Positions 8,913 through 63,316 of a stretch of DNA of 64,000 nt are shown piece by piece. The position numbers were made by a program, and so were the translations under genes. Source of the DNA: Cladocopium goreaui (taxonomy: Eukaryota > Sar > Dinophyceae > Suessiales > Symbiodiniaceae); the NCBI GenBank assembly GCA_947184155.2, contig CAMXCT020000371.1:196954-260953 (forward strand), given 5' to 3'. The notes below the pieces were generated by a model. The model was not told the DNA's origin. It saw nothing but the letters and a program-made list of their open reading frames with translations, and did not search any database. Every line of letters starts with the position of its first letter. Position 1 is the stretch's first letter.

Positions 8913-10292
8913 ATTAAATCACTATAAGATCCCATTAAATCATCCAATCATCCAACCAGTGATGTAGTGAATAGATCTGCAGGCAGCTGCAAGGCAACTG
9001 ATGTCCGACATCCGCGCCTCGGAGTTGGGGATCAGTGACCAACAGTGACACAGTTGTTGAAGCACAGCACGCAACACTCAATGGGATTAAACCCAATAAA
9101 CCAATAAACAAAGAACATTAAAACATATTAAAAGCAACAGGACTGGAATTCTTCAGTCTAAGCACAGAGAAAACAAGAGAATTGCTTGGTACAGTGGATG
9201 CTTACTAAACGAGGATCTCGGGCGTGCAAACTTGGGAGTTGAGGAATTTAAGCTGCCGACGTTTCCCCTGGCCAAGCACAAAGCGCTTCGTTTGTATCCA
9301 TTCTGAATTGCAATTGCTGGCACAACCTTACCGAAATTGGGAAGTCCATATTTGGATGACATTTCCTCGCAATTCATCTAGTGGCTCACGAGCAGTGGCC
9401 AAAATTATTTGATCATCATGGGGGCCTGGCCCTAATGTCTATTGATATCGTTCGCTTCTTTGAACCCACTACCAAAAGTCGGTTCGAGAAGATAGTTGGT
9501 ATACCCAAGTTTTCCAAGTTGCCTCTTCATTGTTCATAATTAGCTGAACATTGAGTGTATCCACTAGCTAAGTCTGAAAATTACATTTCATCATTTCAAC
9601 TGATTTATTCCAATAGCCTAGATTGATACCCCGGCTGTTGAACGTATTTGATCAATTTGACCTAACTTTCCAATATTATGAAAGGGAGTTACTGTTCAAA
9701 ATCCACTCGTTTCAGTTTTTTTTCCTCCTCATTGGCTCAATATTAGAGTTGTGATCAACGAATCAGCTGACTTTCTCCAATCGCCCAGGAGATCAATTGT
9801 CAGCCTCCGCACCTTGCGCTTCCAAGGCTCCGGAAGGGGCCAATGGGGCTCCATCTTGGGCCGATGGGGCTCCGGGAAACACACAGAAATGGTGACATGG
9901 TGGGAAAAACCATCTGGTTATGACTCAAAAAAACCATGGAAAATCCACCCAGTTTTAAAAAAGGTAAACCGTTAGGTAAACCATCTATTTCTATGGGCAA
10001 TTTTCCATGGCCATATTAAATAACCAGAGGGTAATGCTTGTATCATTTTGCTGTGGATATCATGGTGGTAAAATATGGTAAATTTTTGATGGGGATATAT
10101 GGGGATATAGAAGTGGATGATAACCAAGGATTTCTTTTATGACTTGCGACCTCGCATCGCGTCGCGACTGGAATCATGGGAAGTTGAGGACTACAACAGG
10201 ATGAGAAATAGCCAACGTCTCAGTGGGAGCTGGCAGCCCAAAACGTGGATTCAAGGGAAGGCGAATGTTGGATTGAAGCAACAATGGTGATT
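8913..10292. other. Gene-poor; weak islands
   Basis: Weak GC-rich islands near 9220-9320 and 9785-9880 are open in several frames without recognisable products. No element ends were found. Confidence 0.4.
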
Positions 10293-18814: not shown

Positions 18815-19868
18815 AAATTACTTTACTTCGTGTGATCCCCACCATGACATTTATACATTTTCTTACTGGCAAATCTTCTGGCATTCTATCTGACATATCT
18901 TCTGACATTCTATTTGGAATTCTATCTGGCATATCTTCTGGCATATGATCTGGCATATCTTCTGGCATTCTATCTGGCAAATCTTCTGGCATTCTATCTG
19001 GCATATCTTCCGGCACTCTATCTGACATATCTTCTGGCATTCAATCTGGCATTCTATCTGGCATATCTTCTGGCATATATTCTGACATATCTTCTGGCAT
19101 TCTATCTGACATATTTTCTGGCATATATTCTGACATATCTTCTGGCATATCTTCTGGCATATCTTCTGGCATATCTTCTGACATATCTATCTGGCATATC
19201 TTCTGACATATCTATCTGGCATATCTTCTGGCATATTTTCTGGCATTCTATCTGGCAAATCTTCTGGCATTCTATCTGGCATATCTTCTGGCATATTATC
19301 TGGCATTCTATCTGGCATATCTTCTGGCGTATCTTCTGGCATATCTTCTGACATTCTTTCTGACATTCTTTCTAACTTTCTTCTGCACATTCTTTGTCCC
19401 ATATCTTCCTACATGAGGTCCGGCAGGGAACACTTGGCGTGGATACTCGCGGTTGAGGTCCGGCAGGGAACACTGGGCGTGGATGGTCGTGGTTGAGGTC
19501 CGGCAGGAACACTGGGCGTGGATGGTCGTGGTTGAGGTCCGGCAGGGAACACTGGGCGCGGATGGTCGTGGTTGAGGTCCGGCAGGGAACATTGGGCGTG
19601 GATGGTCGTGGTTGAGGTCCGGCAGGGAACACTGGGCGTGGATGGTCGTGGTTGAGGTCCGGCAGAGAACACAGTGGATCGCGGGTCGCAGTTGAGCAAG
19701 GACGACGAGGACGACGAGGACGACGAGGACGACGAGGACGACGAGGAGGACGAGGAGGAGGAGGAGAGGAGGACGAGGCAGGAGGAGGCGGAGGAGGAGG
19801 AGAAGGAGGAGGAGGACGAGGAGGCAACTGACATAAAATCTAACAACCCTCACCTGGCAGGTGGGGAA
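18815..19868. repeat. Composite repeat unit, copy 1
   Basis: Conserved left flank aaattactttacttcgtgtg. Then a 12-bp array (tctggcatatct / tctggcattcta, about 18880-19385), a 40-bp array (ggtccggcagggaacactgg..., about 19425-19675) and a GAC/GAG purine array (19695-19830). It closes on a conserved right flank ending cctcacctggcaggtgggga, in which cacctg/caggtg forms a small hairpin. The same architecture recurs at 59.2 and 60.5 kb. Long open frames through it on both strands (MPEDMPDRMPE-like, SSSSS, PPRPP) are repeat translations. Because the flanks are shared, the unit was dispersed as a block rather than arising by local slippage. Confidence 0.9.
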
Positions 19869-22126: not shown

Positions 22127-22426
22127 GTTATTGTATGTTATTGTGAATCGTTTGTTATCCCCTCCACATTGTTTTCATACCCCTTTTGTGGATGAGCAAC
22201 CACCAGAGTTTGATATCATTTCCGTTATAATGTTTTGCCATTTGCCCATCACCCTAGGTGAAAATAAACTAACATAGATATGAAAAAGCTATGGTTCCCA
22301 CAGAAAGTCATCTACAAATAATTAGTGGATTTTCCATCAAAAAAAATAAGTACATGGGATATTCTCGGCTGCTTATGGCAAAAAAATGGGATATCGTGGG
22401 ATTGTTGGGGTTTTTGATGGGGATAT

Positions 22427-22529
22427 ACCCTCTGGTAAACTAACATAACTATGGAAAATCACCATTTTTAATGGGAAAACTCACTATAAATGGCCATTTT
22501 CAATAGCTATGTTAAATTACCAGAGGGTA
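22427..22529. mobile_element. MITE-A copy 6
   Basis: A complete copy ending 'aaattaccagagggta'. Both arms are intact, and the inner arms include 'gaaaatcaccatttttaat' opposite 'aatggccattttcaatag'. Confidence 0.85.
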
Positions 22530-24139: not shown

Positions 24140-24665
24140 ATGTCATCAAAGATATTCAAACATGGGGATAATTTACGACAATTGACTGATAATGGGTCAA
24201 ACATGGGGATAATTTACGATAATTAATTTGATAATGGGGCAAACATGGGGAAAATTTACGATAACGCAATTGAAAATGGGACAAACATGGGGATAATTTA
24301 CAATAATTAATTTGACAATGGGACAAACATGGGAATCATTTACGATCATTTGATAATGGGACAAACATGGGGATAATTTTTGCGATAATTAATTTGATAA
24401 TGGGACAAACATGGGAAAAAATACGATAACGCATTTGAGAATGGGACAAACATGGGGATAATTTGCAATAATTATTTTGATAATGGGACAAACATGGGAA
24501 TAATTTACGATAACGCATTTGATAATGTGACAAACATGGGGATAAATTGCAATAATTAATTTGATAATGGGACAAACATGGGGATAATTTAGGGTAATTA
24601 ATTTGATAATGGGACAAGCATGGGGATAATTTATGATAATTTTGATAATGGAAAAAAACAGGCTG
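24140..24665. repeat. Approx. 40-60 bp tandem repeat (gacaaacatggggataattt)
   Basis: About a dozen diverged units containing 'gataatgggacaaacatggg' and 'ataatttacgataat'. The 151-aa minus-strand open frame (LSPCLSHYQ repeats) is a translation of the array. Confidence 0.9.
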
Positions 24666-27456: not shown

Positions 27457-27565
27457 TACCCTCTTGTTATTTAACATAGCCATGGTATAGATGGCCCATA
27501 GTAATAGATGGTTCACCTGTTAAAAATGGTGATTTTCCATGGCTAGGTTAAATAACCAGAGGGTA
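27457..27565. mobile_element. MITE-A copy 7
   Basis: A full-length copy in which both arms pair nearly perfectly. The centre reads 'tagatggttcacctgttaaa'. Confidence 0.9.
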
Positions 27566-37488: not shown

Positions 37489-37597
37489 TACCCTCTGGTT
37501 ATTTGTTACATAGCCATGGAAAATGGCCCATAGAAATAGATTGTTTACCTATTAAAAATGGTGATTTTCCATGGCTATGTTAAATAACCCGATGGTA
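37489..37597. mobile_element. MITE-A copy 9
   Basis: Near full-length. Right terminus drifted to 'aacccgatggta'. Confidence 0.85.
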
Positions 37598-40516: not shown

Positions 40517-40620
40517 TACCCTCTGGTAATTTAACGTAGCTACTGTAAATGGCCATTTATAGTTGATTTACCCATTAAACATGGTGATTTTCCATAGCTA
40601 CGTTAGTTTACCAGAGGGTA
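40517..40620. mobile_element. MITE-A copy 11
   Basis: A complete copy: 'taccctctggtaatttaacg' to 'gttagtttaccagagggta'. Confidence 0.9.
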
Positions 40621-41727: not shown

Positions 41728-41833
41728 TACCATCTGGTTATTTAACATAGCCATGGAAAATCACCATTTTTAATGGGTAAATCCACTATTTCTATGGTCA
41801 TTTTCAATAGCTATGTTAGTTTACCAGAGGGTA
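41728..41833. mobile_element. MITE-A copy 12
   Basis: A complete copy with a mutated left end (taccatctgg) and an intact right end. Confidence 0.9.
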
Positions 41834-45170: not shown

Positions 45171-45979
45171 TAGTGTGTGCACTTTTTTTTGACGAATGTT
45201 CCAGCATGCCGGGGTGTCATGCGTCTTCCCCTCCGCTTTTGCGAGTGCGATGGCGCGATGAGGGATGGGAATTCGTGAGCCTGCAGGTGCGATGCAGCTT
45301 TGCGACAGATTTGTTTGTCCTCCTCATACCATGGGATACCTAACGATCTCTCAATTCGTTTATCTCCACAACTTGAGATTGGTGCAGCTTTGTAGCATCA
45401 AATTCTCTCAGCCATCCTATTTCGAAGTAGTATCGACGTATTTCATCTTGCTCCAGAGAGAGATTTTGTAGGTAATTCTTTCATTTTGTGATCATCAAAT
45501 TTCGGCGAGCCCTCCGCCAGGTGGAAAATCACTGGGTTACAAGCTGGACCTGCCAGTGCGAAGCTTCAACTCAGTCACTGGGCTGCAGGATCTCCTTGGT
45601 GTGGGTGTCCAGAGTGAATGAGATCGAACTTTGGTGGAAAAAGAAGCAGGGATCAAGTAGGATCTTCCAATCATTTCAAGGTGGTAATCTGATGTGCTAG
45701 GATCCTGGCCATTTGTATATTTGGGAATTATTGCGGGAATGGTAGATTTAGCGGCCCATCTTAGTATTGAGTGCTTGAAGGTTCCTATTGGATCAGTTGC
45801 AGGAACTTGTGTCAAGACGACTTCTCCCTGTCGTCTTGTTGGGGGGTATCCCAAGTGCCGATGCATCTTCAATCTGCTGTGACTCCGTCAGAGACCTTGA
45901 GTATTGGATTTGTTCAGAGGCCCATTTAGCTCGGTTCGGTTTACACGCACACACATGTGTGTGTATACATATATATATA
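45171..45979. other. Left flank of the four-gene element
   Basis: Competing short frames around 45480-45880 and a CA/TG/TA tract at 45948-45979 that abuts the element end. Confidence 0.35.
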
Positions 45980-46057
45980 CCTGGAGCCTCGAGAAGGGAA
46001 CAAATTTCTTGGATTTTGGGAATTTCTGGGTTTAACCCGGAAATTCTTCAAAAACCC
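45980..46057 (+). repeat. Left end: degenerate TIR and subterminal motifs
   Basis: It starts cctggagcctcgag next to TA repeats and includes aaatttct, ggatttt and a near-perfect palindrome gaatttctgggtttaaccc + ggaaattc. A further aaacccggaaatttg follows. Its inward order matches the reverse complement of the right end. Confidence 0.5.
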
Positions 46058-47596
46058 GGAAATTTGATTTAGCAGGGTTTAGTAATGTTGAGTGGGTATT
46101 CTTCCAATTTTGGGGTTTCTGAAGCCATTTGGCTTACCTGGTATGGTTCTCACTTCCCGCTTTTCTCCAGGTGCGCACCCTTCTGTGCCTGCTCAACGGT
46201 ACATGGACAATTACCCATCTTTATGATTAAGTAGAATGCTTTGACCAGCTCCAATCTCAATTTAATTGTCCATGTAGTGGCCGCATGTGTGCCTGATGCA
46301 AGCTCCTTCATTCCTGAATCTAATTTCTAAGGCAGCACGCATTGGCTCAATTTTGAATAGGCAAAATGCCTTTCACGCAATGTAGCCCTGAAGCTCTCAA
46401 AGTCTTAGCTGATGAAGGACAACAAAGGGAAGAAAACTTGAATGGAACCAAAGCATGTTCAAATCCTGTACTGGGTTCGCTTTGTATCTCATGGCCTTTG
46501 CCCCTGCTAGGATTGACGGGGTTCCCGGATAAGTTCTGGAATGAAGTGGCCAGCTTACTTTTCAAACCGAAGGATTCTCAGGTGGGACAGTGCCAATTTG
46601 AAACTCACACGGGCTGTTCTGTCCAATTGGAAACCCTTTGGATCTGGTAGTAGCCTAACCCCTCCAGGAAACCATGACCGACCAGATGCTGAACGATGCA
46701 GTGTCTAACTACAGACAGCATGGATCAGTTTTTGAACTGGCAACTTATTTTCGTCAGTGCACAGGCTTCTTGATTTAAAACAGGTCAGCACAAGTCAATT
46801 TAACACAATGTCATGGATTTGTTTTTTGAGCGCATGCGCACCCCAATCTAAGGTTCCTTGAAAGATTCCGAAGCCACACCCTCTGAGCCCCAGAATGAAA
46901 CTTCTGGGTCTGATCTGAAATGATCTCAAAAATGAGAATGGTGCACTAGATCGGGTCAGTGGAAAAAATCCTTTCTGCATGTTATGCCCTTTTCCTATCA
47001 AGTCTTTTCACACCTTTAGACTTTATCCTTTTGGCCAGTTGTCACATTGCTTGCCGCCCACGCAGGTGTGCCTACCTCAGCCCTATAGCGGCCCGGAAAG
47101 GTATCAGGTGCCACCCGCTTTGCTCAGTTCAGCTTGTGCCTTCAAGGGTGAGTGGAGGGGTTGACAACTGGGACACTGTTGCTCAAAGTTTGCCTGAAAA
47201 ATCCATAACATACATGTAGACGGCTCAAGGATCCTGTCCTGAGAAAGAGTGGTGACTGAACATGTCGCTTGACGGGCTGGATAAAATACTTGCCAATAGC
47301 CCACTTGCCCGGGAGCGCCTGCTTCACTCTGGTCGCCTGCTCGCCTGGCCAAGCAGCAAGACCGTTGGGCTTATCAGTGGTGATTCTTTACGGCTGAATA
47401 CACAAGTCATCAAGTTGCTGGCTGATGTTTGGTGTCCTCAGTGGGAAGGGCCTGCTATGGTACCCATTGACATGGTAAAAGACCAGGCCTATGAAGTTTA
47501 AAATCACCACTAATGTCTGTTAGTTGCAAAATCTATATCGGTGCAATATCCCATCAAACACCCTGTTAGGTGAAACTCCTCCGAGATTCTTTGAAC
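46058..47596. other. Leader region of the element
   Basis: Open pieces such as 46366-46650 (EALKVLADEGQQREENLNGT) and 47262-47501 (LDGLDKILANSPLARERLLH) could be exons of an upstream or fifth gene. They could not be joined in frame to gene B, whose own ATG lies downstream. No TATA-like promoter signal is expected in dinoflagellates and none was seen. Confidence 0.35.
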
Positions 47597-49574
47597 ATGT
47601 CGAACGATGTGGCTAAGATTCATTGCGATGGGACGGCGTTGAAAGGGTTCATGACCTTCATCAACCAAACATTGCATAGGAATGAAAAAAGCGAGACACT
47701 TGCTCATTGAACATGCTTAATTTTTGTTTGACCTTTCCCTCTTCTACAGCATAATTTTTCTATTTCTGTCAGCTTTCTCATGTTTACCCCCAGACAGTCA
47801 TCCCAAAGGATACTCTGTTGGATGAGCTCTTCGCTCACATCCGTGGCTACTAGCCTTTGAGCAACTCACAGCTGGCCAAGCAGGCCACAGAGAGCTATGA
47901 GGGTGTGCAGCCGGAGGCAGAGGGAGGTGGGGAAGCAGTTGAGCGGCAAGCTGAGGAGGACATGTTAGAGGACACAGAGTTGGCAAAGGCTTTGGGTGTC
48001 CCTGATGAGTTGGTTGCACGCATGTCACCGTCAAAGCCCAAGGGGTCACTCCAAGATGCCCCCAATCCTATGGCTGCAGTTGCCCAGCCAGAAGTTTCAT
48101 GTGAGCCAGCCCCGGTTGAGAAATCTGACCGCCAGAGGCGAATTGAAGCCTTGCAGTACCCTGAAAAAAACAAAAAAAAGTTTTTGCACACATACCCCCA
48201 AATACCACATCGTGTTTCCATGTGTCCGTATTGAGCCTAGGCAGATGTTGGCCGCAGCCAAGTCCAAGAAGGAGTCCAAGAAGGAGTCCAAAGCCCCGCT
48301 ATGTCCGCAGAGTGTTGATCCCAACAAGGTGGATACCCTCGAGATGGACTTGTCCCCCATTGCCAAGGTTATGTCCAACACATTGGCATGTGATGTGATT
48401 GGAATTGAGGATGAAATTAGTGATGATTGCCCTGAGAACATGGAGGGACCTGTTGACGAGGATTCTGTTCCGCCCACCCAGCCTGACCCGGTGCCGTCTG
48501 ATGATGTTGCTGCTGCTAGTGGTGAACAAGCTTTAGACCCTGGTGCCTCCAAATCAGTCTTTGACCAGGAGGCAGTTAGTTGTGATTACGGTGCGGTTGA
48601 ATCGAGACAAGCCATCATTGGCCAATCTTTGGGGTTTAAATCTAAGTTACATCTGTTTTTCTCCAATGAAAACCTTCCTCCATTAACCTTCTCTCCACTC
48701 AATGCTTTCTTGCTTGCAGGTGAACATCACTCGCATGGACCAGCAGAAGTGGAAGAGGGAGCTTGACGACGAGGCTCGCCGGAAGGAAAAGGAGGAGGAT
48801 GATAAGGAGAATGCCCATCAAAACAAGCCCAAGGGGGAAGGCAAGGCCAAGACCAAGCCTAAGTCGAAAGCCAAAAAGTCTCCCAAGGAGAAGGACACAA
48901 AGAAGGACACAAAGAAGGACACAAAGAAGGACACAAAGAAGGACAAAGCCAAAGCCTACTCCGACAGCAAAGTCGGCGAAGGCTAAGGCTAAGCCTAAGA
49001 CCAAGCCTGAACCACCACCGGCTGATGCTGAAGCTGAGATGAAAACCCCTGTCCGAAAGCACGTGCCCAAAGGGCCTTCGCCGACAGGTCTCCAGAAGCG
49101 CAAGTCTGCTGCTGCCTTGGAGCCGGGGGACCATGTGACCCCCCCCAAGGAATCCAACCGCAGGAAACGGGGCTCAGGTGAAATTCCCAAGACCTTTGCC
49201 CGTCGTTACAAGCCAAGCACATCTTGGGGTGGCTTCAAATGGGAAGCATTGCGTTCCGTTTTCCAGTCCATCATTTCCATTCGGGTCAAGGGCCTTTCCA
49301 AGCATGAGGCAAGGTTTAGAAATTTGAAAACATTGAAAACAAATCTTTTTTGGTCCAAAGAACCTATCAAGTTCTTAGGGTTTTGTCGCAAGAAACATGT
49401 TTACCCTTCTGGTTCTGCCATGACCATGGGGCTTTCCAGGCGGACTTTTGGGACTTTGCCTCCGAGAAGTTCAACTTGTTGGACAAGAAGGACTACATGA
49501 ACTTTACTCAGAAAGATTGGGACCGGGATGCTGAGCTTGTAGCCCATGATTACCTTGCGTCCCTGGAAGGCTAG
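47597..49574 (+). pseudogene. Gene B: Lys-rich protein, disrupted copy
   Basis: The proposed N-terminus is MSNDVAKIHCDGTALKGFM. Exon 2 (from 47794) reads TVIPKDTLLDELFAHIRGY, then an in-frame TAG (47851-47853), then continues as LSNSQLAKQATESYEG and an acidic stretch. Exon 3 (about 48240-48600) is acidic. Exon 4 starts 48720 after cttgcag and has a KKDT-repeat Lys tract, inside which the frame shifts by one near 48950. It resumes KPTPTAKSAKAKAKPKTK through FARRYKPSTSWGGFKWE. A frame-checked GC-AG intron (49309-49439, gag|gcaagg...ttccag|g) joins KHEADFWDF and the end, DYLASLEG-stop. The stop and shift argue for decay, unless readthrough or an unseen intron rescues it. The C-terminal ARRY-P-T...FW...DY layout resembles a Symbiodinium family I recall. 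Function unknown; the Lys-rich middle suggests nucleic-acid binding. Confidence 0.6.
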
Positions 49575-50231
49575 TCAGGGAAGATTGCACCAAATGGTGC
49601 CTGAAAAGGGATACCATGCTTCGAAAGTTGTTTGTTAGCTCGCTGGCCTTCCTAGTGGATGGGATGGAAAAATCCAGACTACTGCATTGCAACAAAAACC
49701 CAACAGAAGTTCAAGCCCCTTTGAACAAGGTGACATCCCCAACTTGCGTTGGGGTGCCAAGTAAAGGTACTCTAGCTGTTCTTTACCCAGGGGTGCTGTC
49801 AGCTTTTCATCCCTGGCTGCTGGGCGTTGTCTGCAGATCAAACATCTGAGCGCAAATCTGAAAAAATGTGTCTTGCGGAACCCAATCTAAGCCACCATCA
49901 CTTGTCCACCCAAGCTACTTGGCCCCCTCGCTAGGTGCCAATGCCACGCCGTCGAGCCTGCAGCATGGTCTTTGCAAAGTATGGCGAGCTGGAAAGTACT
50001 TCTGGCTTGTGTTGTATTTATCTTTCTTGGGATTTCTTGGCAGCTCACGAAGATTATCACATCGCTCATGAAGCCTTTTTTGATCAAGGGTTGGGATCGG
50101 CTGGCCTAAAAGGGAGGTGAACGCAATGGGCCCACAAGCTCTTGAACGTGTCTTGAAAAGACTGATATTTCTGGGTGCTCCAAAAGACCCTTAGCTCAAC
50201 CAATTTGTATGTTGTGAGCTTCATAACACAT
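49575..50231. other. B-A intergenic space
   Basis: Contains 49935-50120, open as MPRRRACSMVFAKYGELE..., which might hold the first exon of gene A. No proven splice. Confidence 0.35.
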
Positions 50232-51922
50232 GACTTGCATTCATAGAAACTGTAAAGGATCCAAAACTGTATTCCTGGACAGCCAAGGCATTTATCCTTG
50301 TCATTCTTTTGGCAAGTTGGCAGACCTTTTCGCCTTATTCCGAGGGTGCCCAGTATGAGGTGATTGAATATTATGCCGGTGTTGGCCGGATTGCTCGCTT
50401 AAGCTCAGCATGTGGGTATCAGTCTACAGCTTATGATGTCTTGTACCAACCCGGGCCTTCCAACGCAGCCACAGGTCCAGGGCCAGGTTGTGGGAAAAAG
50501 GTGCCTAAGGGCAAACGGGTCATGGACCTAAGCCAACCGTCTGGCTTTGCGTTGCTCTAGATTGAGCCCAGTTAGCGCATTTTTTACTTCCCCAAAACTA
50601 CCACCTTATATTGCGTTAATCAATGTATAACGTTATCATGTTATTATTGCTTTTGGGGGGTGACCCTTGACCAGGTTGGCCTTACACCTATTGATGCAAG
50701 GAAAGTTCTCAGAATTGCTGACGTTCTGGGGTATTTGCTGCTCCAGTTGGATCCATTTAAATTCTGGTACTTCAAAACGGGACTATGCAACGCCTATGGG
50801 CTGCGATGTTCCTTCCGTGGTATTAGCCAACTTGCTTACATCAAGGAACTGTGATGGGGAAATGGTCGGAACTGCTTGGATGTTAATCTTAGACTAGAGA
50901 GCCTGATGTTGGGAGTTTGCCCCACCCCCATTTTACCTTTTACTCCAGCTGCACCCCGCTGCCCGCTGCCAGGAGCTGCTTTCTGATCCTCTTTGTGATT
51001 TGCATGGAAGGAGTGCCCGTAGTGGAAAACCCAGGCTCATCTTTGATTTGGCTACATGATAGGTTTCAATGGCTTCTCACCCTACTTGAAAGGGCTGGTT
51101 TGAAGGTGGCTTGGTTGGTGTTTGCAAACTGTTGATCCCAAAATATTGTGGGAAACGTTCCTGTGAAAAATCTATCAATTTTGTTTTCAATGATTTCTTG
51201 GACCAACTAAGATGTATCGTCAAAGCTTTTGGATGCGTGGTTTCGACCATTTTTCAATGAAAAGAACAATTTTGTGGAGCACTAGTCCGGCCATCATTGC
51301 CTTCATGCAGTTTGCCCACTTCAAGGGAAAGAAAGACAAGAGCCCAGCTTCCAAATCAACAACAAGGCGTTACATAAACCGTTGGGGAGAAGTTGCATAC
51401 CATGGCACAAAAGATTTGAAGCGAACCCAGAGCCGTGAAAGCATTATCATATATTTTGTTCGAAATTTGGTGCAAACCTTTCAAAACACTTTTATTGATA
51501 ATAGCAGTTTATCTAATGATTCGATTTCTCAGGTGCTGTAAACCAAAGGGTTTGGCAGGGCTGCATGGTGTCAAATCTGAGGATATATACTCCAAAATTT
51601 GCATCATTTGTGGTGAGACTTGTCCCAAAGCTGCATGAACAAAAGCAGAAGTTTCCAGAGGTTCTTTGGCTGTATATTATTCGTGGAATTGGGGAATTAT
51701 TTCAAATAAAAATTGTATGGTGAATCTGAAGTAGCTGATTTGTTTGATCACCAAAAGACCAAGGTTGAAGATAACCGGCCCCTCACCCTGATGTTCGCCG
51801 AGATGCAGTACGAGGATTGGTGCGATGATGCGCGGTTCAGAGATGTGATTAGGTACCTTCGTGGTTCCAAAGGGCTTTCCATTCCCCCGGAATGGAGGCC
51901 ACTCATTCCCGACTATATTTAA
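50232..51922 (+). CDS. Gene A: Rossmann/C5-methyltransferase-like protein
   Basis: Six exons join in frame with no lesion: to 50550; 50675-50845; 50973-51105 (or 51108); 51212-51434; 51533-51660; 51764-51922. The product is about 370 aa; the true start may be in an upstream exon. Introns are GT-AG except 50846-50972, which is GA-AG (tcaag|gaactg...tgccag|g). Motifs in order: EYYAGVGRIARL (50366), an acidic AYDVLY, GICCSSWIHLNSGTSKR (50730), then VVENPGSSLIW (51019), and later FWMRGF...KRTILWS. AG-x-G, a Cys in a turn before SSW, and ENP match the order of C5 cytosine-methyltransferase motifs I, IV and VI, although IV lacks the usual PPC. The end, EYDWC-like to RYLRGSKGLSIPPEWRPL then IPDYI-stop, resembles the C-terminus of a Symbiodinium family I recall. 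Catalysis is inference. It may modify or bind DNA of the element, or only keep the fold. Confidence 0.7.
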
Positions 51923-52346
51923 ATCCAATTTGTCCTCATATCCTGATGCCTCAAGTCTGCAGAAAGGTTTCCAAACTCTAAGCATAGAATTTGGGGAACT
52001 AATAGGGAAAACATGTAGCTTACTCCAAATCATTGCAAAATTTGCAGATTTGAACCAATTAGCTTGCCGTTGTGTAACAACGTTCAAAACGGGCGGAAAA
52101 AAGAACCCGGAAATCCCCGGGAAAAACCCGGAAATTGGCGGGAAAAACCCGGAAATTGGCGGACTCCTGTTTGCATGTTTTTTTATTGTTGGTCAAAATC
52201 AATTTGATCTCAAGACTGGAAACAAAAATCACGAGGCTATCCTTTCCCATAGTCTTTGTGCCCAAAAGATGTCTGAGAGACTTCAAAGTAGGGCTTGGTC
52301 CTGTTCAACCCTCCAAGCTGGCCTTCAACTCGCAAGTGACTTGCCA
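51923..52346. other. A-C intergenic space with internal motif cluster
   Basis: Contains the acccggaaatt cluster and an open frame that may carry an upstream start for gene C (ATG at 52269). Confidence 0.5.
52104..52163 (+). repeat. Internal acccggaaatt cluster
   Basis: Three spaced units (aacccggaaatccccggg, aaacccggaaattggcggg twice). The same motif as at both ends of the element. Confidence 0.8.
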
Positions 52347-55300
52347 ATGTCCTTGAGTGCCTTTGGCGATGATGATGTCGCGGCGATGGAGAGGGAACTT
52401 GCCCAATTGAAGGTCAGTTCTTGGGGGTGGGGGAAAATTAAACCCCAAATTCAAATTGCAATCCATTTATTCTAGAACCTTTTGAATGTGGACAACCCCT
52501 TTCAAAAGCAATCGGAAATTGGGATTGCTTCCAACATATTGGGGTGCAGATTATATCGAGCATGCACGTTTCACATGAAACATTATGAAACTGTGCCCAA
52601 AGTCCAAACGGTTGATTTTCTTTTTTTGAAACAATACCTATTCTGGTAAGATAGTGGGGTGCTAAAAAGGCTATGTCGATAGTACACAAAGATATTGTAT
52701 ACTACAAAATTCAAATCAGGAATCCACAGTGTAGTGCATAACTTGTTGGGCCAATTTCCCTTGAATAGACAAGAAGAACCATTAGGATCCCATAAAGATA
52801 ATATGGTTGCTGCCTGCCAGGCAGAGGAGGAAGCTGACCGAGGCAAGGGTATTGGGGGCCCTGGCGCTGGCAAGGGCTTTGCTTTTCTCGCCGAAGCAGT
52901 TGGTGCATCATTTCTGATCGATCTTGAATCTGATGATGAGGGTTTGAAGAGCAACTTGATCAAATTTCTTTTCCCAGGTGATTACCATCCAAAAGATTTA
53001 TGTGCTATATTGAAAAATTGGTATTTATACCCTGGGATCTTGGAAAACCCTGTAGCCATCTGTAGCCTCAACATTCTTTGAGCAATCGATGTCCTAACAA
53101 AAAACAATCCAGCGGAATCCAGCGGGATAATGTGCTTGGACCATCTTGGACCCACCAAACCATCGGTTTCAAATCTTAAAATTCAAGGCTGATTTTATCA
53201 AGCTTCTGGTTGGATTGAACCCTAAAAAATAACCTGCTTTCCCGCCGCCCAAGGTCCCACGGCGCCTACATCGACTGGCAGCAGCAAAGGTTCTGCTCCA
53301 AAGCCTTTGCTGGTCCCGGTGAGTGGACATCGGGTAGGTGGTGATGGTGGGGCCACTGAAAGTTGCACTCTACCTGACACCCCACCTGATTCTGATGTTG
53401 AAGTTGATGAACAATCCCCGAAATCAGTGCCGCCTGAAGACTCCAACAGTACCCCTGTTTCTGGGCTATGTTTTTTTTTGGTGGGGAATGGTTTGTGATT
53501 CCAGGTTATTCTTGTCCCATGTTAAGTATCCCCATTTTGTTCTTATTGTTCATTGTTTTCCCTTGTCAAGTATCCACATCTCAATAAAGATTATTATATA
53601 TCGGTTTGAGGTGTAACAACCACAAAAAAGCGGGATAATATTATTGTACATCTACCCTGAGTTCTTTTACTAGACTTTGGACTCTTGTGGGGAAGGGTTG
53701 ATTTTTTTAACATTTCACCACGTCTAAGGAAATTCTGAGACAAGCACATTCCCAAGCAGATCCTTTCTCTAAGTCAAAGGAGGCATACGAACTTGTTCGG
53801 AGAGAGATGCCCCAATCAGTGGTTTCCCAGACGCCACCAGCTTCCGAGCCCAGCCAGCCAGGCATGCTGGGTGAAGGCACTACCAATGCGGAGAGAGCTG
53901 ATGATCGTCCAGGGTCCTCAGCACCGGTTCCGGCCATGTCAAAGGGCGCCATTGACAAAAGGCTGAGACGTGTTTTCACACCTTTGAAAGATGGTTCCTA
54001 CAGGGTCCCCGAAGAGTTCGTTAAAAAATGGGATCGACCTGGTGCAGACAGAGATGGATTGTTTGTCCTCTTCGAAAAATGCAACTACGAACCGGACTGG
54101 TTTGTTGTAAAACACTGTGATTTGTTTTTTTTAAGGGAGTTCCATATACAATAAACGTGGTTAGAAGGCCTTGTAGGGTAAACCTATGGAATGAATAATG
54201 AAATTACTGTATGTTTTTTTTTGCCTGTTTTATTTTCAACATGTCATCCCAACATTTCCAATCTCCATTCCTGGAGGATAAATTCGTCACCGTGTGCCAG
54301 AAGATCACCGAAGAGATTGATGAAGCAGCTTTGAACGTAGAGTTTGAATTTCAAACAGAGAAGGACATGGTGGACAATGGCTATTCGCAGTGCCATGACA
54401 AAAAATAATACTGTAGGTTCACATCTATCCCACTTATGCAGTTCAGATTATCAAGATTAGCATCCTTGCTCTTCCCCAATGCTGCTGCATTGAGGGAGAA
54501 GATCGACTGCATCAAGGAGTCATGCAAAGATGACCCAACGATGACAAGGCAAAGCTCAAATCAAATCAGTTTCAAGATTGTTTGACATGAGTTGGGATAG
54601 TGCCCATGTCCCCACAGCCCTGCCAGGGAATCGAAGTATGGCGGTGGAACTATGTATTGGGTGGAGACGGCCGTGAAAGGAAATCTGAAGAAACTAGGTT
54701 TTACACATCTATGCTCATGGGATTGTTTTATGATGTGCCACTAGTCTAGAATTCTCTCTTCTCTGCTGGTGTCTTGGCTTAGGAATATCAAGCGCGACAT
54801 ACTCAAGAAGATATGTTCTTCGGAAGAAGAGGGCAAGGTTCAGGATCTCGACATCAAATCTGTTTTCAATGGGACGTCCGTTGCAGGCCATCTTAATTAT
54901 TCGATATGCATTCCTTGTATGTGCTGTCATTCTGCTCCTTAATGGGTCTAGAGTCTAGACTCTAGACCGTTCCAGCTTTGCCCCTGACCGGGTCTAGACC
55001 ACACCCCGCAAGGCCAAGCCCATGGAATCTTGGGCGCCGTGCCGTCAGCTTCGCCCAGCCAACCTGCAGAGAATGAGATTGCCAAAGCTTTGAGACTGTC
55101 AGGCTTTCCCGAAGTAGAGAAACCGATGGTGGCATCCCAGCACGCTACCAAGGTTTTAGGTGGCATACAAAAACGGATTGTGAAGTTGCATGAGCTGTCC
55201 GACAAAATCAATGCAATCCATGGAGAACCCAGTGACCTTCTGAAAAGGAGGGGTGCTCAGAACTCCGGTCTTGTTCCCATGTTTTGAAATTTCAGGATGG

Positions 55301-55968
55301 CTTGTTCAATTTAATAGCATTCTGTAGCCCAATAATGACACAAACCAAATCCCACTATCCCAGGATGAAGGAGAAGATTGACGGCTTAAAATCGACCTTG
55401 ACCAAGAATGTTGATGAGCTGAATGGCTTCTACAGTGATGGCGTGGTGGATGGATTTACTGAACAGCTTCTTGACATTTTGAGGTAACAAATCAAATCCT
55501 TCATAATTGGTCACACATTGTAATCATTTAGCCAAGGTTGGAGACATCTATGAAGGCCATCATGGTGTCAGCCAAGAAAGTGTGCCAGTCTCAGGAATAA
55601 AAGGGCATTGAATTGAATGAGATCTTTTCTACTTCCTTTCTGAACCGTGAAAAAAACTTCGTCTAGGTAGTGGATGCTCAGGTGCAGCGAAGCTTTGATG
55701 TTGGAGCCACGTGCCAGGCAGTGAGCTCAATGCCTATAAGTTTTCGAACACGTCATAGATTATATTTAATTGCCTACATTAGCTCAGGTCTCTGATTACT
55801 GAGCATGAGAAGCAACGCCGCAGAGCTTTGGCCGACCAGCAGCAGCAGCCGCCCAGGAAACGGCTCAGAACAGACCAAGGAACCCCCAAGTCCAAGGCGA
55901 AGGCAAAAGCCAAAACGGCGCCGAAGCCTGCCACCAAAAAGCGCTCCACCAAAAGGGAGGAGGACTAG
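52347..55968 (+). CDS. Gene C: multi-exon charged protein with basic tail
   Basis: The first exon reads MSLSAFGDDDVAAMERELAQ and ends at 52412 (aag|gtcagt); an earlier ATG at 52269 is possible. Middle exons near 52824-52977 (AEEEADRGKGIGG) and 53250-53465 (Pro/Ser/Asp-rich) are approximate. From 53728 (KEILRQAHSQAD...) to 54094 the core reads IDKRLRRVFTPLKDGSYRVP then EEFVKKWDRP. Frame-checked exons follow: 54277-54386 (DKFVTVCQKITEEIDEA), 54495-54548, 54627-54697, about 54990-55247, 55364-55483, 55537-55587 and 55788-55968. Introns include GA-AG (54095-54276; 55248-55363) and GC-AG (54387-54494; 54549-54626). The exon around 54782-54850 is uncertain. The tail is a Gln run, then PRKRLRTDQG and a Lys/Ala-rich nuclear-localisation-like end, KREED-stop. 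I recall the core from Symbiodinium gene models; no biochemical function is known to me. Confidence 0.65.
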
Positions 55969-56215
55969 GGTAGGGGTACACCTGGCTTGAGTGTTGATCT
56001 TTAATTTGCCTTTTCAACGCACATGATAGAATAAACAGTGCGTTTGGCTTTTCCCTTGGGATGTTCCAAGGATGCGATGTGGAACCAGTCGGGGCTGAGA
56101 AAAAATCAAACCTGCAGTGCTGTTGCTACTTGACATTGCCTAAGCCACTCCTTCCCAGCAATCTTCATTCCCAGTAAAAAAATCTTTTCGGACATCGATG
56201 GTCACTTTGCCAGGT
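55969..56215. other. C-D intergenic space
   Basis: About 250 bp with no frame of interest. Such close spacing fits co-transcription, with spliced-leader trans-splicing to separate messages (inference). Confidence 0.5.
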
Positions 56216-58181
56216 ATGATAGAAAGTGATGATGATGCTAATGAAAGTCATCTCATGCAACACTATGCTGAAGAAATGGGCCGTGGGGCCTAGGCCTCAG
56301 GAATAATTGTGGCATGAAATTGTCTTAGCTGCCCCATTCGAACCTGCCCAAGGCCCCAGCAACATCCATCGCTCGAAACCTCAGGGCGGTGAAGGGAGAT
56401 TTTGGTAGAACCCCTTCCTCCACAACTGGGGGATGTGACAAGAACGCACAAAGAGATGTCCAAACCATGTTAGAAAAAGCTGGGTATTCCTTGACAGTGG
56501 ACAAATCTATGATTTCTTTCACTGCTGAAGATGGTAGTGTCATCGAGCTGCCACTAGTGAAACCTACGTCATGGTTGAGCACTTTGCTTAGCAACTATTC
56601 GTTTCTCCTTCAAGGAGGTGATGGCAAGGACCTACATCAACAGCTGGCTGCCTTTTGGGAATGCTACAAGTTTGTTCAACCAGGCCATGAAGTCTACAAG
56701 TTGGACCCCGGAAAACTTGCGTATACGCTACCTCTCCTACTGTATGGCGATGAGGGACGATACTTGAAAAAGGGCAATTTCATGGTTTGTACTTTTGAAT
56801 GTGCTCTGGGAAGTTCACCGAAAAAACCGAGCCTTGCAATTGCTCCTCAGACCCAGTGCTTCAAAGGTATGGGGCTATGAACTGTGGCTCCCATGGAGTG
56901 GCCATTGATCAAGCTGCGGCACTAGCTTCAACACAACAAGTTAACGATAGCGGAAACGAGTTTTTGTCCAAATTCTTGCTGTTTGGCATAGCATCCCAGG
57001 TGTACCGAAAGAACAAAGGTTTGATTACAATGGCTTTCGATGAGGTTGTCTCTGACCTCTCTGAATTGTTCTGGCATGGCATCGTGGTATCTGGGTCTAC
57101 CTACTTTGGTGCAGTTTTGGGGTGCAAAGGGGATTTGAAATTTCATCACCAACTGGGAAACCTACAGCGCTCGTACTACAACGTTGGTGTCAAGAAGAAC
57201 CACCCTATATGTAGTCTGTGCTTGGCTGGTAAAGAAGGAATTGAGTTTGAAGATCTTTCAGATCATCCAAAGTGGTTGGCAACAGAATTTCAAAAACCTC
57301 CTTGGGAAGAGAACATGGTGCCATCATTGGCCAAATTGCCTTTTGAGACTGGAAAAGCTGAAGGTATATTCCGATTAGATTTGTTCCATTGCTGGAAGTG
57401 CGGCCTTGGCCGAGATTTGATTGGGTCAGCAACAGTGGTTCTGTGCCTCTTGGGGTACTTTGATTTTCCAGGTTTTTCCGAAAACTTTCCTGACCGTTTG
57501 GAGAGGGCATGGAGTTCATTCCGCCTTTGGACACTTGCGAACCAGAAAACACCTGCGATCCATTACTTCTCCAAAAGCCTGTTCAATACGCCTAACCAGC
57601 GGTCTTTTGCATGGGCTAATGTGAAAGGTTCTGACACAACATTAATGACCCAATGGGTTCTCCATGTTGTTCGTCTCTCCCGAGAAAGCCGTGGGCCAGT
57701 GAATGATGCGCTAGAGGGTGCCCTGATTGAAGCTTGTGAGAGTGCAATCGCTTTGTTTGCTGTGCTCCATTCTCACCCCTTGTGGATGGACCGGGTTTGT
57801 GGCCAAAGGTGCCAGCATCATCTACTTGTTATGATCCGAGCCTATCGATTTTTGGCCCTGGAATCGAGAAGGTTAGGTGTAGTTGGTTTTGGTTTAAAAC
57901 CGAAGATGCATGCTTTGCATCACATTTCCAAAAGTTTGAAATCTCAATTGCAGTCAAACGCACCCAGGATTCTCAACCCTTTAGTATTCTCTTGCGAAGC
58001 AAATGAATCAGTGGTGGGGCATGTTTCTAGAATTGCCCGAAGGGTAAGCTCTAGGACAGTCAGCCTCAGAGTCTTGGAAAGGGTCCTGATCAGAACGAAA
58101 GCCCTCATCCGAAAGCGAAAGGGCAATCTAAGTTCCAGGCTTCGGGCCTATTGCCGAAGAGCTCGACGAATGAACGCTTGA
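56216..58181 (+). CDS. Gene D: transposase-like protein, D...DxxH...E layout
   Basis: About 625 aa if exon 1 (56216-56287, MIESDDDANESHLMQHYAEE), exon 2 (56329-56866) and exon 3 (56914-58181) are joined. The joins need a 41-nt GC-AG and a 47-nt GT-AG intron, both very short; one-base frameshifts are the alternative. Landmarks: LPLLLYGDEGRYLKK with Asp at 56749; NHPICSLCLAG, a CxxC; FRLDLFHCWKCGLG with Asp at 57378 and His at 57387; KGSDTTLMTQWVL; and LVFSCEANESVVG with Glu near 58005, followed by basic SRIARRVSSRT. A first Asp after a hydrophobic strand, CPxC-like, then DxxH, then Glu with a basic tail is the order in CACTA (Transposase_21), KDZ and Plavaka transposases. This match is by layout only. 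The protein strongly resembles an expanded Symbiodinium family I recall as unannotated. It lies 140 bp from the right end of the element. Confidence 0.7.
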
Positions 58182-58210
58182 GCTGGAAAATGGAAATTGA
58201 CTGAAAGAGA

Positions 58211-58321
58211 CAAAACCCGGAAATTCACAGAGAACCCGGAAAATCCCGGAAATTCACAGAGAACCTGGAAAATCCTTCAAAAATGAAGAACATAGAAATT
58301 TCACGAACTTGAAGTTCAAGG
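58211..58321 (-). repeat. Right end: subterminal motifs and degenerate TIR
   Basis: aaaacccggaaattcacaga, gaacccggaaaatcccgg and aattcacagagaacctgg form a direct array. It is followed by aaaatcc, agaaatttc and the palindrome cttgaagttcaag, ending in gg next to a TA tract. Read inward it mirrors the left end. Confidence 0.5.
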
Positions 58322-58777
58322 TATATATATATAGTCACACACACATATAATATACTGTAGGCTATTATATAGGTATAGACATGTTCATACGGATATATGC
58401 AGTATACACTATGCACTATACAGTATAAACATAAATCTATTCTTGTTTTGCGAGGCTTTTCGAAGTAATAAGAAGAATTTCAGGGGCAAAACACCGCGGT
58501 GCCATTTTGACTCCAAGCCGGAGGCATTACTGTGCGGAGCTTTTTTTGTTTAAAGCTGGAACATGTGCGAAACCCAAGCGCCTCTTTTTTTTCCTCTCTC
58601 TCTCTCTAAAATTATATAATCATAATGATAATGATAATGATATACTACATATATATATATATATGTATATTATAGTGGCGTATAGTCATAGTCAAGCATA
58701 GTCATTTGTATCACTATTGAGTTTTCATGAGTTTTCCATGTTTTCCAATTGTTTTAATTCCTCAATAGCGATAGCTT
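58322..58777. other. Right flank of the element
   Basis: TA and CA tracts at 58321-58350, CT run at 58592-58608, TA at 58648-58668. No gene. Confidence 0.5.
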
Positions 58778-59208: not shown

Positions 59209-60186
59209 AAATTACTTTACTTCGTGTGATCCCCACCATGACATTTATACGTTTTGTTACTGGCAAATCTTCTGACATTCTATCTGGCATATCTTCTGGC
59301 ATTCTATCTGCCATATCTTCTGGCATTCGATCTGGCATTCTATCTGGCATATCTTCTGGCATTCTATTTGGCATTCTATCTGGCATATCTTCTGACATCC
59401 TATCTGGCATTCTATTTGGCAAACATTCTGGCACACTATCTGGCATACCTTCTGGCACTTTATCTGGCATTCTATCTGGCATATCTTCTGGCATTTTATC
59501 TGGCATATCTTCTGGCATTCTATCTGACATTCTATCTGGCATTCTATATGGCATATCTTCTGACATATCTTCTGACATCCCATCTGGCATGTCTTCTGGC
59601 ATATCTTCTGACATCCTATCTGGCATTCTATCTGGCAAATCTTCTGGCATTCTATCTGGCAAACATTCTGGCATTCTATCTGGCATACCTTCTGGCATTC
59701 TATCTAACTTTCTTCTGCACATTCTTTGTCCCATATCTTCCTACATGAGGCCCGGCAGGGAACACTTGGCGTGGATACTCGCGGTTGAGGTCCGGCAGGG
59801 AACACTGGGCGTGGATGGTCGTGGTTGAGGTCCGGCAGGGAACACTGGGCGGGGATACTCGCGGTTGAGGTCCGGCAGGGAACACTGGGCGTGGATGGTC
59901 GTGGTGAGGTCCGGCAGGGAACACTGGCGGGGATGGTCGTGGTTGAGGTCCGGCAGGGAACACTGGGCGTGGATGGTCGTGGTTGAGGTCCGACAGAGAA
60001 CACTGTGGATCGCGGGTCGCAGTTGGACGAGGAGGACGACGAGGAGGACGACGAGGAGGACGACGAGGAGGACGACGAGGAGGACGACGAAGAGAACGAC
60101 GAGGAGGAGGAGAGGAGATGAGGAGAGGAGAGGAGGAGCAGGCAACTGACATAAAATCTAACAACCCTCACCTGGCAGGTGGGGAA
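59209..60186. repeat. Composite repeat unit, copy 2
   Basis: The same flanks and internal order as the 18.8-kb copy: 12-bp array (about 59265-59705), 40-bp array (59745-60010), GAC/GAG array (60025-60145) and the hairpin-bearing right flank. Confidence 0.9.
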
Positions 60187-60461: not shown

Positions 60462-61330
60462 AAATTACTTTACTTCGTGTGATCCCCACCATGACATTTA
60501 TACGTTTTGTTACTGGCAAATCTTCTGACATTCTATCTGGCATATCTTCTGGCATTCTATCTGCCATATCTTCTGGCATTCGATCTGGCATTCTATCTGG
60601 CATATCTTCTGGCATTCTATTTGGCATTCTATCTGGCATATCTTCTGACATCCTATCTGGCATTCTATTTGGCAAACATTCTGGAACTTTATCTGGCATA
60701 CCTTCTGGCACTTTATCTGGCATTCTATATGGCATATCTTCTGACATATCTTCTGACATCCTATCTGGCATTCCATCTGGCATATCTTCTGGCATATCTT
60801 CTGACATCCTATCTGGCATTCTATCTGGCAAATCTTCTGGCATTCTATCTGGCAAACATTCTGGCATTCTATCTGGCATACCTTCTGGCATTCTATCTAA
60901 CTTTCTTCTGCACATTCTTTGTCCCATATCTTCCTACATGAGGTCCGGCAGGGGACACCTGGCGTGGATACTCGCGGTTGAGGTCCGGCAGGGAACACTG
61001 GGCGTGGATGGTCGTGGTTGAGGTCCGGCAGGGAACACTGGGCGGGGATGGTCGTGGTTGAGGTCCGGCAGGGAACACTGGGCGTGGAGGTCGTGGTTGA
61101 GGTCCGGCAGGGAACACTGGCGTGATGGTCGTGGTTGAGGTCCGGCAGGGAACACTGGGCGTGGATGGTCGTGGTTGAGGTCCGACAGAGAACACTGTGG
61201 ATCGCGGGTCGCAGTTGGACGAGGAGGACGACGAGGAGGACGACGAGGAGGAGGAGAGGAGATGAGGAGAGGAGAGGAGGAGCAGGCAACTGACATAAAA
61301 TCTAACAACCCTCACCTGGCAGGTGGGGAA
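60462..61330. repeat. Composite repeat unit, copy 3
   Basis: Nearly identical to copy 2 over its first ~200 bp. It then lacks part of the 12-bp array and one to two 40-bp units, so it is shorter by about 110 bp. Recent duplication with array contraction. Confidence 0.9.
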
Positions 61331-61849
61331 TAAAAACACATAGTGAGGCCAAAGCAGTCGCCAAACCATCTGTCTACAATATTAGTACGTTTATGGGTTT
61401 TGGGCCCCAGTGCTTTAAGGTAGCCCGACTTTTGGTGGTTTATTATTGAATATGATTCCCATACTCTAAGTCAAGTTTAAGACCACCAGAAACAATGATT
61501 AGTGGATTTAAAATTTTACACGTGTTCTGAAGATAAATTATATGCATTAAGTTTTCAGCCCATAGAGCATTCATTCAGTATACATGCCTCTGCTACAGAT
61601 ACAGTACATACCACGATATGACTTGATGATTCGTGTAAACATACGATTCGATTCGATATGCTTCACTGTGATTGTGCATTACGCTAACCCAAATTTTCAG
61701 AAAAAACGGAATTCAGAAACCACAAGTCTTGAACTTGTTTACACGTGTATGAACTGAATTGAAGGGAATTGAAAATGTCGCTATGGCTAATGACCAAATC
61801 AAGTAACTTCTGCAAATTCAGAAGTGGAACGCGCATACTTGATAACTAT
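61331..61849. other. Nothing recognised
   Basis: AT-rich, no supported feature. Confidence 0.4.
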
Positions 61850-62262: not shown

Positions 62263-62902
62263 TTAATCTTTGCTGCCTCCTCAACTTTTCTAAAATCTAA
62301 AATCAGAAATCAAAAACAAAGAGCCAACCCAGCTTAGCCCAGAAAAAGCGAAATCCAGGATATGATATGCGGACCTATTACTGAAGACTCATTGACAATT
62401 TTTGCTGAACCTGCGAACTCAACACAAATCAAAAAAAAAGATCTTCAACCCCAATCAACCTTCTTTCAGGTTTGGCTGTTGGTGAGTCTAGTGTTTTTGG
62501 TATGTTTGGTGCACTTCTGCAGTCAATATCTTCTGAGTAACGACCAAAGAAACAAATTAAATGTCCAAAATCCCTCAATCTGCAAAAAGGTTCATGATTT
62601 CCGGTTAGGTGTCCGAAAGTTGGGTTTTCAAACGGTCGACCCGAACTTGTCCCGGCAGTCCTTGACAAAGTGTGGTTGCTCTAGGACCGTGAAATGTTTG
62701 CAGATATCCTTACATGCTGGCCTCTTGCTGTGGTCCAGGTTGTATTGTTTGTATTTAACATCAGTTGGTATGAAAAGGAACCTGAAACTGCTAATGTCAA
62801 GTTCGTGTTAACAACCCCCCCGGAAGGTCTAGATCATTCTAGATCCATGAGAAGGTTTTCACCCCCAAAATTGACCAGCAAAACCAACAATGTAATTCAT
62901 TA
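62263..62902. other. Unresolved open frames
   Basis: A 149-codon forward frame (62362-62811) contains a hydrophobic stretch (WLLVSLVFLVCLVHF) after a ctttcag acceptor. An antisense frame reads DCRSAPNIPKTLDSPTAKPE. Neither is recognised. Confidence 0.3.
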
Positions 62903-63316
62903 GATTTTCCTTTTAAATCTCAAGGATAAGTAAGGAGGTCAGTTAAAATCCATTTGTTTTCAATTGATTTTCCTGTTAAATCTGCAGGATAACTAGGGAT
63001 TTCAATTTAAACCAATGTACTTTCAATTGATGTTCCTTTGAAACCTAAAGGACAAGTAAGGAGTTCAATTGAAACCAATTTACTTTCAATTGATTTTCCT
63101 TCTACATGAAAAGGGGTAAGAAAGGATTTCACCTGAAATCAAGTTGCTTTTACTTGATTTTCCATTTATATAAATCTAAGTGACAAGTAAGGATTTGACT
63201 TGAAATCAGCTTTAAATTTACATAATGAACAAAAAATCCACTTGACATCCATTTACTTTCAATTGATTTTCGTTTTAAATCTAAGGGATAGGATTTCAAT
63301 TGAAGTCAATTCATTG
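62903..63316. repeat. 63-bp minisatellite
   Basis: Units begin gattttccttttaaatct at 62903, 62966, 63029, 63092, 63156 and 63265, i.e. three exact 63-bp steps, one of 64, then one of 109. Each includes 'aaggataagtaaggatttca' and 'tttactttcaatt'. Confidence 0.95.

Follow-up and report, generated by a model that had tools for sequence, protein, structure and literature searches.

A four-gene island in the dinoflagellate Cladocopium goreaui is probably one copy of a large family of DNA transposons that insert at TA

Dinoflagellates have large genomes in which a substantial share of the repeats is unclassified. We examined a 64,000-nucleotide window of the Cladocopium goreaui genome (C371:196954-260953, in an assembly of 1.17 Gb and 6,202 contigs; "the window" below is this whole stretch), in which four co-oriented genes, B, A, C, and D, occupy an island at positions 45980-58321. 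We consider it likely that this island represents a copy of a ~12.3-kb DNA transposon of autonomous type and that it is a member of a large multigene family. As expected of a DNA transposon, it occurs at unrelated sites as discrete copies that share their ends, and it has inverted termini and a target duplication together with a related empty site. Mobility, which a preliminary description of this DNA had proposed, is supported by that structure and by one empty site, at which a TA duplication could be read for the copy on contig C4537.

To locate copies, we used the C-terminal 424 residues of gene D as the query (best 99 of 1,110 candidate places scored), and four places besides the window were 99 to 100% identical to it. 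Comparison of the surrounding DNA (~18 kb around three near-identical copies, 13 kb at the contig edge for the fourth, and 14 to 18 kb around six distant loci) revealed three further full copies of the island and a fifth copy cut by a contig end, with 97.7 to 99.5% identity that stops at 45980 and 58321. The limits that the preliminary description had drawn were thus exact to the base. A 916-base left-end probe found four places and a 922-base right-end probe found five, all of them known copies; neither probe found a nonautonomous copy, although short derivatives would escape probes of this kind.

All four left ends in view read ATA/CCTGGAG (the slash marks the element boundary) and adjoin TA, the flank finishing in ATA before CCTGGAGCCTCGAG, and at all five right ends TTCAAGG precedes TAT. 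The inverted end motifs next to TA tracts that had been reported earlier correspond to a 39-nucleotide inverted pair (45955-45993 and 58308-58346) that is 79% alike and is partly TA microsatellite. Within the element itself, the terminal 14 bp match at 10 of 14 positions, a level equaled by 0.05% of 200,000 random TA-anchored pairs drawn from the element.

When the flanks of the C4537 copy were joined with one TA, they matched C2646:140998-141247 without interruption at 80% identity. Alignment of the filled site (AAAATA-element-TATTTACAGG) with the empty one (AAAATA-CTCACTGG) shows that insertion added the element plus one TA. At C4537:18849-18956, less than 1 kb upstream of this insertion, we also observed another copy of its left flank, with 83% similarity. 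The flanks of the window copy matched only themselves outside the microsatellite stretch (best 40 of 189 candidates).

Each of the four genes is conserved at other loci. Six distant gene D loci (51 to 61% identity), which represent three other lineages (C5925; C2201; and C899, C1258, C5550, and C4057), all have A and C preceding D on the same strand and in the same order, and B precedes A in all six (only the 3' part of B in C5550, where the contig begins), so that the four genes grouped in the preliminary description are indeed found together elsewhere. Elements of the C899 lineage span 14.6 to 14.8 kb and have the ends TATA/CCTGGAAACTC and TTTTGTAGG/TATA, and the C2201 element spans 12,585 bases, from TA/CCTCTATCC to GATCCAGG/TA, its left end being placed by likeness to the C899 lineage without a second copy. 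Thirteen ends from 10 lineages have CCTGGATCTTCC-like termini in common, and the D proteins of lineages with similar ends are about 34 to 59% identical to those of the window family. The right-end motif GA[AGT][AG]NTNNAGG/TA follows the D stop codon by no more than 650 bp in 9 of 12 lineages (it is missing there in C215, C575, and C899, the copy-mapped end of C899 differing from the motif) and has three matches in 128 kb of window strands; because the motif was drawn up on the same lineages, this count describes rather than tests.

The gene order could be followed more widely. The gene A query gave 133 matches (best 103 of 1,474 candidates scored), collapsed by hand to at least 71 loci; the gene C query gave 90 matches (best 150 of 240 candidates scored), collapsed by hand to at least 67 loci; and two gene D queries (best 99 of 1,110 and best 73 of 1,211 candidates scored) gave at least 109 distinct loci. 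The arrangement first noted at one locus recurred among the 67 scored C loci: 37 had A upstream (1.5 to 3.9 kb) and 47 had D downstream (2.8 to 5.3 kb) on the same strand, such that 63 had at least one of these partners, 21 had both, and 4 had neither. One C-D pair within 20 kb was in a different arrangement among the scored loci, and a scored A lay upstream on the same strand at 25 of the 99 D loci from the first D query.

The element also carries clustered short motifs. With at most one mismatch, AACCCGGAAATT occurs nine times in the window versus 0.72 expected, and all nine lie inside 46021-58254, in three clusters at both element ends and in the middle; the preliminary description had correctly placed the same subterminal motif at both ends and had not listed the internal cluster. 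By scanning elements for the half-sites CCCGGAA, GGCGGAA, and similar sequences, we found that the gap between A and C holds a 10/11-bp half-site array in all four lineages, with one half-site to each turn of the DNA (spacings of 14, 10, 11, 10, and 11 bp in the window family; 10, 11, 10, and 11 bp in both the C899 lineage and C5925; and 10, 11, and 10 bp in C2201). These arrays, together with similar half-sites at the left end, are newly seen here. In each of the three lineages whose left end is known (the window family, C899/C4057/C1258, and C2201), the left-end half-sites begin at +56/57 and +76/77, with only the first (+56/57) present in C2602. Measured from the right end, half-sites start at 77 and 58 bases in C4537, C1114, and C2602 and at 106, 87, and 77 bases in the window copy, which alone among the five copies has a 29-bp duplication of the right subterminal motif (58238-58266); the half-site scan found none at the right ends of the C899 and C2201 lineages. 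As a fraction of the element, the center of the internal array lies at 0.498 to 0.499 in three window-family copies, 0.504 in C2602, 0.502 in C899, 0.5025 in C4057, 0.508 in C1258, and 0.501 in C2201, near the midpoint in each of the three lineages with both ends known, a position that may be due to chance because the lineages share ancestry and the pattern was noticed after the fact. The half-site GGCGGGAAA in the internal array resembles the E2F binding site, which we offer only as a lead to possible host cell cycle control.

Gene D likely encodes the transposase. Its main frame of 617 codons is open in four other copies, and in the window copy it is broken by a one-base length difference near 56.83 kb; this copy cannot encode D at full length in a single frame unless the difference stems from a sequencing error. 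An intron within that frame was rejected as an explanation because the other copies are open through that stretch. Thus, of the four co-oriented, short-intron genes described earlier, all are present, but the main part of D is not split by introns. Alignments of 11 and 15 sequences identified residues that are invariant or nearly so among 15 diverse members: H139 (Y in the window family), G140-D141, G268-D269, C295xxC298, E308-D309, D351xxH354, D436, K524-P-K526xH528xxxH532, and C556xxNE560, with D141 in HGDEGR, D269 in KGD, and E560 in C-x-x-N-E. The layout (D, a second D ~130 residues on, CxxC, DxFH, KPKxH, and CxxNE) is reminiscent of that of CACTA/Plavaka/KDZ transposases, and D may act as a DDE-type enzyme. 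In all six pairs of D genes compared, synonymous differences (0.73 to 0.87 per site, near saturation) exceeded nonsynonymous ones (0.24 to 0.36), showing that gene D is under purifying selection, and a hand count found no internal stop in 92 of the 99 D matches (best 99 of 1,110). In three lineages compared for both proteins, D is slightly better conserved (59, 52, and 48% identity) than A (49, 48, and 46%).

That D has no profile match to any transposase would fit an alternative that we regard as unlikely, namely, that the element is mobile but is cut by the product of another of its genes or by a host enzyme, with D not catalytic; the invariant acidic residues and CxxC in D, the purifying selection on it, its conservation relative to that of A, and the reminiscent residue layout all argue for a catalytic D. 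Candidate matches that we did not find credible were two unrelated Pfam families (E values of 0.025 and 0.1, one D member each), hemoglobin and other PDB entries for D alone (E value of 0.16 or worse), and two PDB chains for the D profile (E values of 1.3 to 1.4). No relatives of D were found in viral contigs.

The product of gene A may be a DNA methyltransferase, as judged from its motifs. Common to four lineages are E-[YF]-[YF]-[AS]-GVGR, D100, D130, WGICCSSW, ENPGSS, KRT, and a C-terminal YLRG; their succession and approximate spacing would fit motifs I, II, III, IV (PC), VI (ENV), and VIII of cytosine-5 methyltransferases, with CC replacing PC in A. The gene contains one GA-AG intron, a splice-site feature that, along with genome size and gene families, points to a dinoflagellate host; the end of exon 4 (one base, a frame slip) and exon 6 were set by eye. 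A PDB haloperoxidase (E value of 0.27) was not a credible match for A, and neither of two pattern matches in viral contigs was a relative.

Gene B has a conserved FWNEV..LLF in its first exon, a lysine-rich middle, and a conserved FARRY region near its C terminus. It is present as the preliminary description had proposed, with a start that lies earlier than was noted, near 46366, and, relative to the other three full copies, that of the window differs in length by 4 bp near 48946. Pieces of B and C matched no Pfam family above the cutoff, and we rejected the weak matches DUF2459 (E value of 0.071, B), DUF3807 (E value of 0.0042, below its cutoff, C), and GatF (E value of 0.26, a piece of C). 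A size of 12 to 15 kb, four genes of unknown family, and a basic tail of C that could suit a DNA-packing protein might point to an integrated virus or virus-like (Polinton-like) element rather than a transposon. We regard this as very unlikely, since the element makes a 2-bp TA duplication and has short termini and since no scanned protein or piece of the four genes reached a Pfam cutoff, such that no capsid, polymerase, packaging ATPase, or integrase of Polinton/Maverick elements or polinton-like viruses was seen, although sequence profiles could miss a very diverged capsid.

Several observations weigh against a transposon of the kind proposed. Its mobility is deduced from sequence comparison, and the inverted termini are short and imperfect, matching at 10/14, 9/14, and 10/14 positions in three lineages. 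The empty site on C2646 is a relative at about 80% identity and not an allele, and it is the only one found for the three insertions searched: for C2201, only separate flank pieces were matched, and for the window insertion (best 40 of 189 candidates), only microsatellite matches bridged the joint. Among the scored places, 30 of 71 A loci had neither C nor D (41 had one or the other) and 58 of 109 D loci had neither C nor A (51 had one or the other), although these partnerless loci do not show absence because only the best candidates were scored per query. A Pfam scan of 15 D proteins gave no credible match and no link to a transposase, a search of this genome with PF02992 gave no match but had an uninformative control, and gene A had no credible match to a methyltransferase in Pfam or PDB, either as a single sequence or as a profile. 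The transposase-like residue layout of D that was described earlier is present, and the readings of D as a DDE-type transposase and of A as a methyltransferase-type protein stay provisional.

Finally, C2602 has the right flank of C4537 but a different left flank, meaning that recombination or misassembly has affected one of the two, more likely C2602 because the empty site fits both C4537 flanks. A common right flank is what would be expected from recombination or assembly error, and a host gene cluster or segmental duplication might have been spread by recombination instead of transposition. This we consider extremely improbable: at each end, copies in different places lose homology at the identical base, next to TA; an uninterrupted related site exists; and ends are alike across lineages with D proteins as diverged as those noted above (about 34 to 59% identical to those of the window family).

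If the island is a transposon, D would use the invariant acidic residues D141, D269, and E560 to cut the CCT.../...AGG ends and would join the cut element into TA, frequently where the DNA is rich in TATA. Either B or C, both of them basic, might bind the helically phased half-sites at the element's end and middle, thereby building a transposition complex and perhaps also controlling transcription of C and D; TnpA of maize Spm reportedly combines end binding with transcription control in a similar way. The gene A product might modify the element or flanking DNA. We tentatively suggest, while leaning slightly the other way, that the family constitutes a new superfamily of eukaryotic DNA transposons, with a fixed four-gene order, a transposase unlike catalogued families, a methyltransferase-like partner, and centrally and terminally phased half-sites. 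With such half-sites at the left end (at both ends in the window family) and at the geometric center, a protein complex might keep the two arms looped at equal length while the element transposes. The family is large and apparently undescribed; we found no account of a four-gene element family in the literature searched, with Repbase, Dfam, and most subscription papers outside that search.

Table 1. Features of the element and matches of its copies (window coordinates)
Feature	Position	Strand	Remarks
Left TA target duplication	45978..45979		4 left ends; duplication relative to empty site shown for C4537
Left terminal repeat CCTGGAGCCTCGAG	45980..45993	+	Homology of copies stops here; resembles ends of other lineages
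Left subterminal AACCCGGAAATT cluster	46021..46064	+	Half-site cores at +57 and +76 of element
Gene B, several exons	46366..49574	+	Exon borders by eye
Gene A, ~7 exons	49981..51922	+	Motifs EYYAGVGR, WGICCSSW, ENPGSS, and KRT in C5-methyltransferase-like order
Gene A exons	49981-50089, 50247-50550, 50675-50845, 50973-51103, 51212-51433, near 51603-51690, ~51713-51922	+	
Internal half-site array CCCGGAAA/GGCGGGAA	52092..52157	+	Spacings 14, 10, 11, 10, 11 bp; center at 49.8% of element
Gene C, many short exons, basic C-terminal tail	52269..55968	+	Start and exon borders by eye
Gene D, likely transposase	56216..58181	+	Main frame 56329-58181; short first exon from ATG 56216 by eye only
Right subterminal motif cluster	58212..58269	+	29-bp tandem duplication in window copy only
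Right terminal repeat, reads CCTTGAACTTCAAG inward	58308..58321	-	Copy comparison; likeness to ends of other lineages
Right TA target duplication	58322..58323		Copy ends; C4537 empty-site alignment
Copy C1114	45972-58330 matched		Single continuous match, 99.5%
Copy C4537	45977-58327 matched		Single continuous match, 99.5%
Copy C2602	45963-58327, two pieces		98.5-98.7%; carries 151-base insertion
Copy C1335	Match ends at 58332		Truncated by contig end; 97.7-98.7%

The window contains other repeats. A palindromic repeat of ~105 bp, roughly TACCCTCTGGTTATTTAACATAGCC ... GGGTA, is present in at least six copies (9909-10033, 22426-22529, 27457-27565, 37489-37597, 40517-40620, and 41728-41833), with partial copies near 141-202, 10293, 10988, 14714, and 43219; it looks like a miniature inverted-repeat transposable element with TA at its edges, and its ends differ from those of the four-gene element. 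A dispersed repeat of ~1 kb (18815-19868, 59209-60186, and 60462-61333) combines a TCTGGCATA minisatellite, a 40-bp tandem repeat, and a GAC/GAG run, and the same minisatellite occurs within the element of the C899 lineage, ahead of gene A, and directly behind gene D in C575. Tandem repeats of 42 bp (24157-24641) and 63 bp (62888-63193) are also present, and no spliced leader sequence was found in the window at up to three mismatches.

If the family is equally abundant in other species, some of the expanded but unidentified gene families of dinoflagellates would consist of transposon genes, and gene counts and comparisons would shift accordingly. The element is also a concrete candidate to test as a genetic tool.

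Among known systems, the CMC elements (CACTA/EnSpm, Mirage, and Chapaev) appear to resemble the island in having separate helper and transposase genes, subterminal arrays of short motifs, short termini, and similar DxxH and CPxC spacing, and Mirage shares the 2-bp TA duplication. The island differs from them in its ends, which are CCTGGA-like and not CACTA, in its four genes, including a methyltransferase-like one, and in its internal phased array; moreover, none of the 15 D proteins matched the Pfam family Transposase_21 at E values up to 10, although HMMER's filters drop most weak matches. Plavaka and KDZ (Kyakuja-Dileera-Zisupton) elements appear to share the late PKxHxxxH followed by an acidic residue, but none of the 15 D proteins had a Pfam match of that kind, the relevant models presumably being PF18758 and PF18759, whose presence in the scanned library is unconfirmed. 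In Symbiodinium, SymbioLINE-Dnmt and SymbioDIRS-Dnmt3 are likewise mobile and carry a cytosine methyltransferase, with the SymbioDIRS-Dnmt3 domain clustering with eukaryotic Dnmt3, but they are retrotransposons with a reverse transcriptase (PMC5890265), whereas gene A of the island matches no Pfam family. If our interpretation is right, the island would add a transposase family and would place a methyltransferase-like gene in a DNA transposon beside these retrotransposon cases. The introners of Symbiodinium microadriaticum share inverted termini and a dinoflagellate host with the island but are short (an example has 115 bases) and make 4-bp duplications (PMC9860276).

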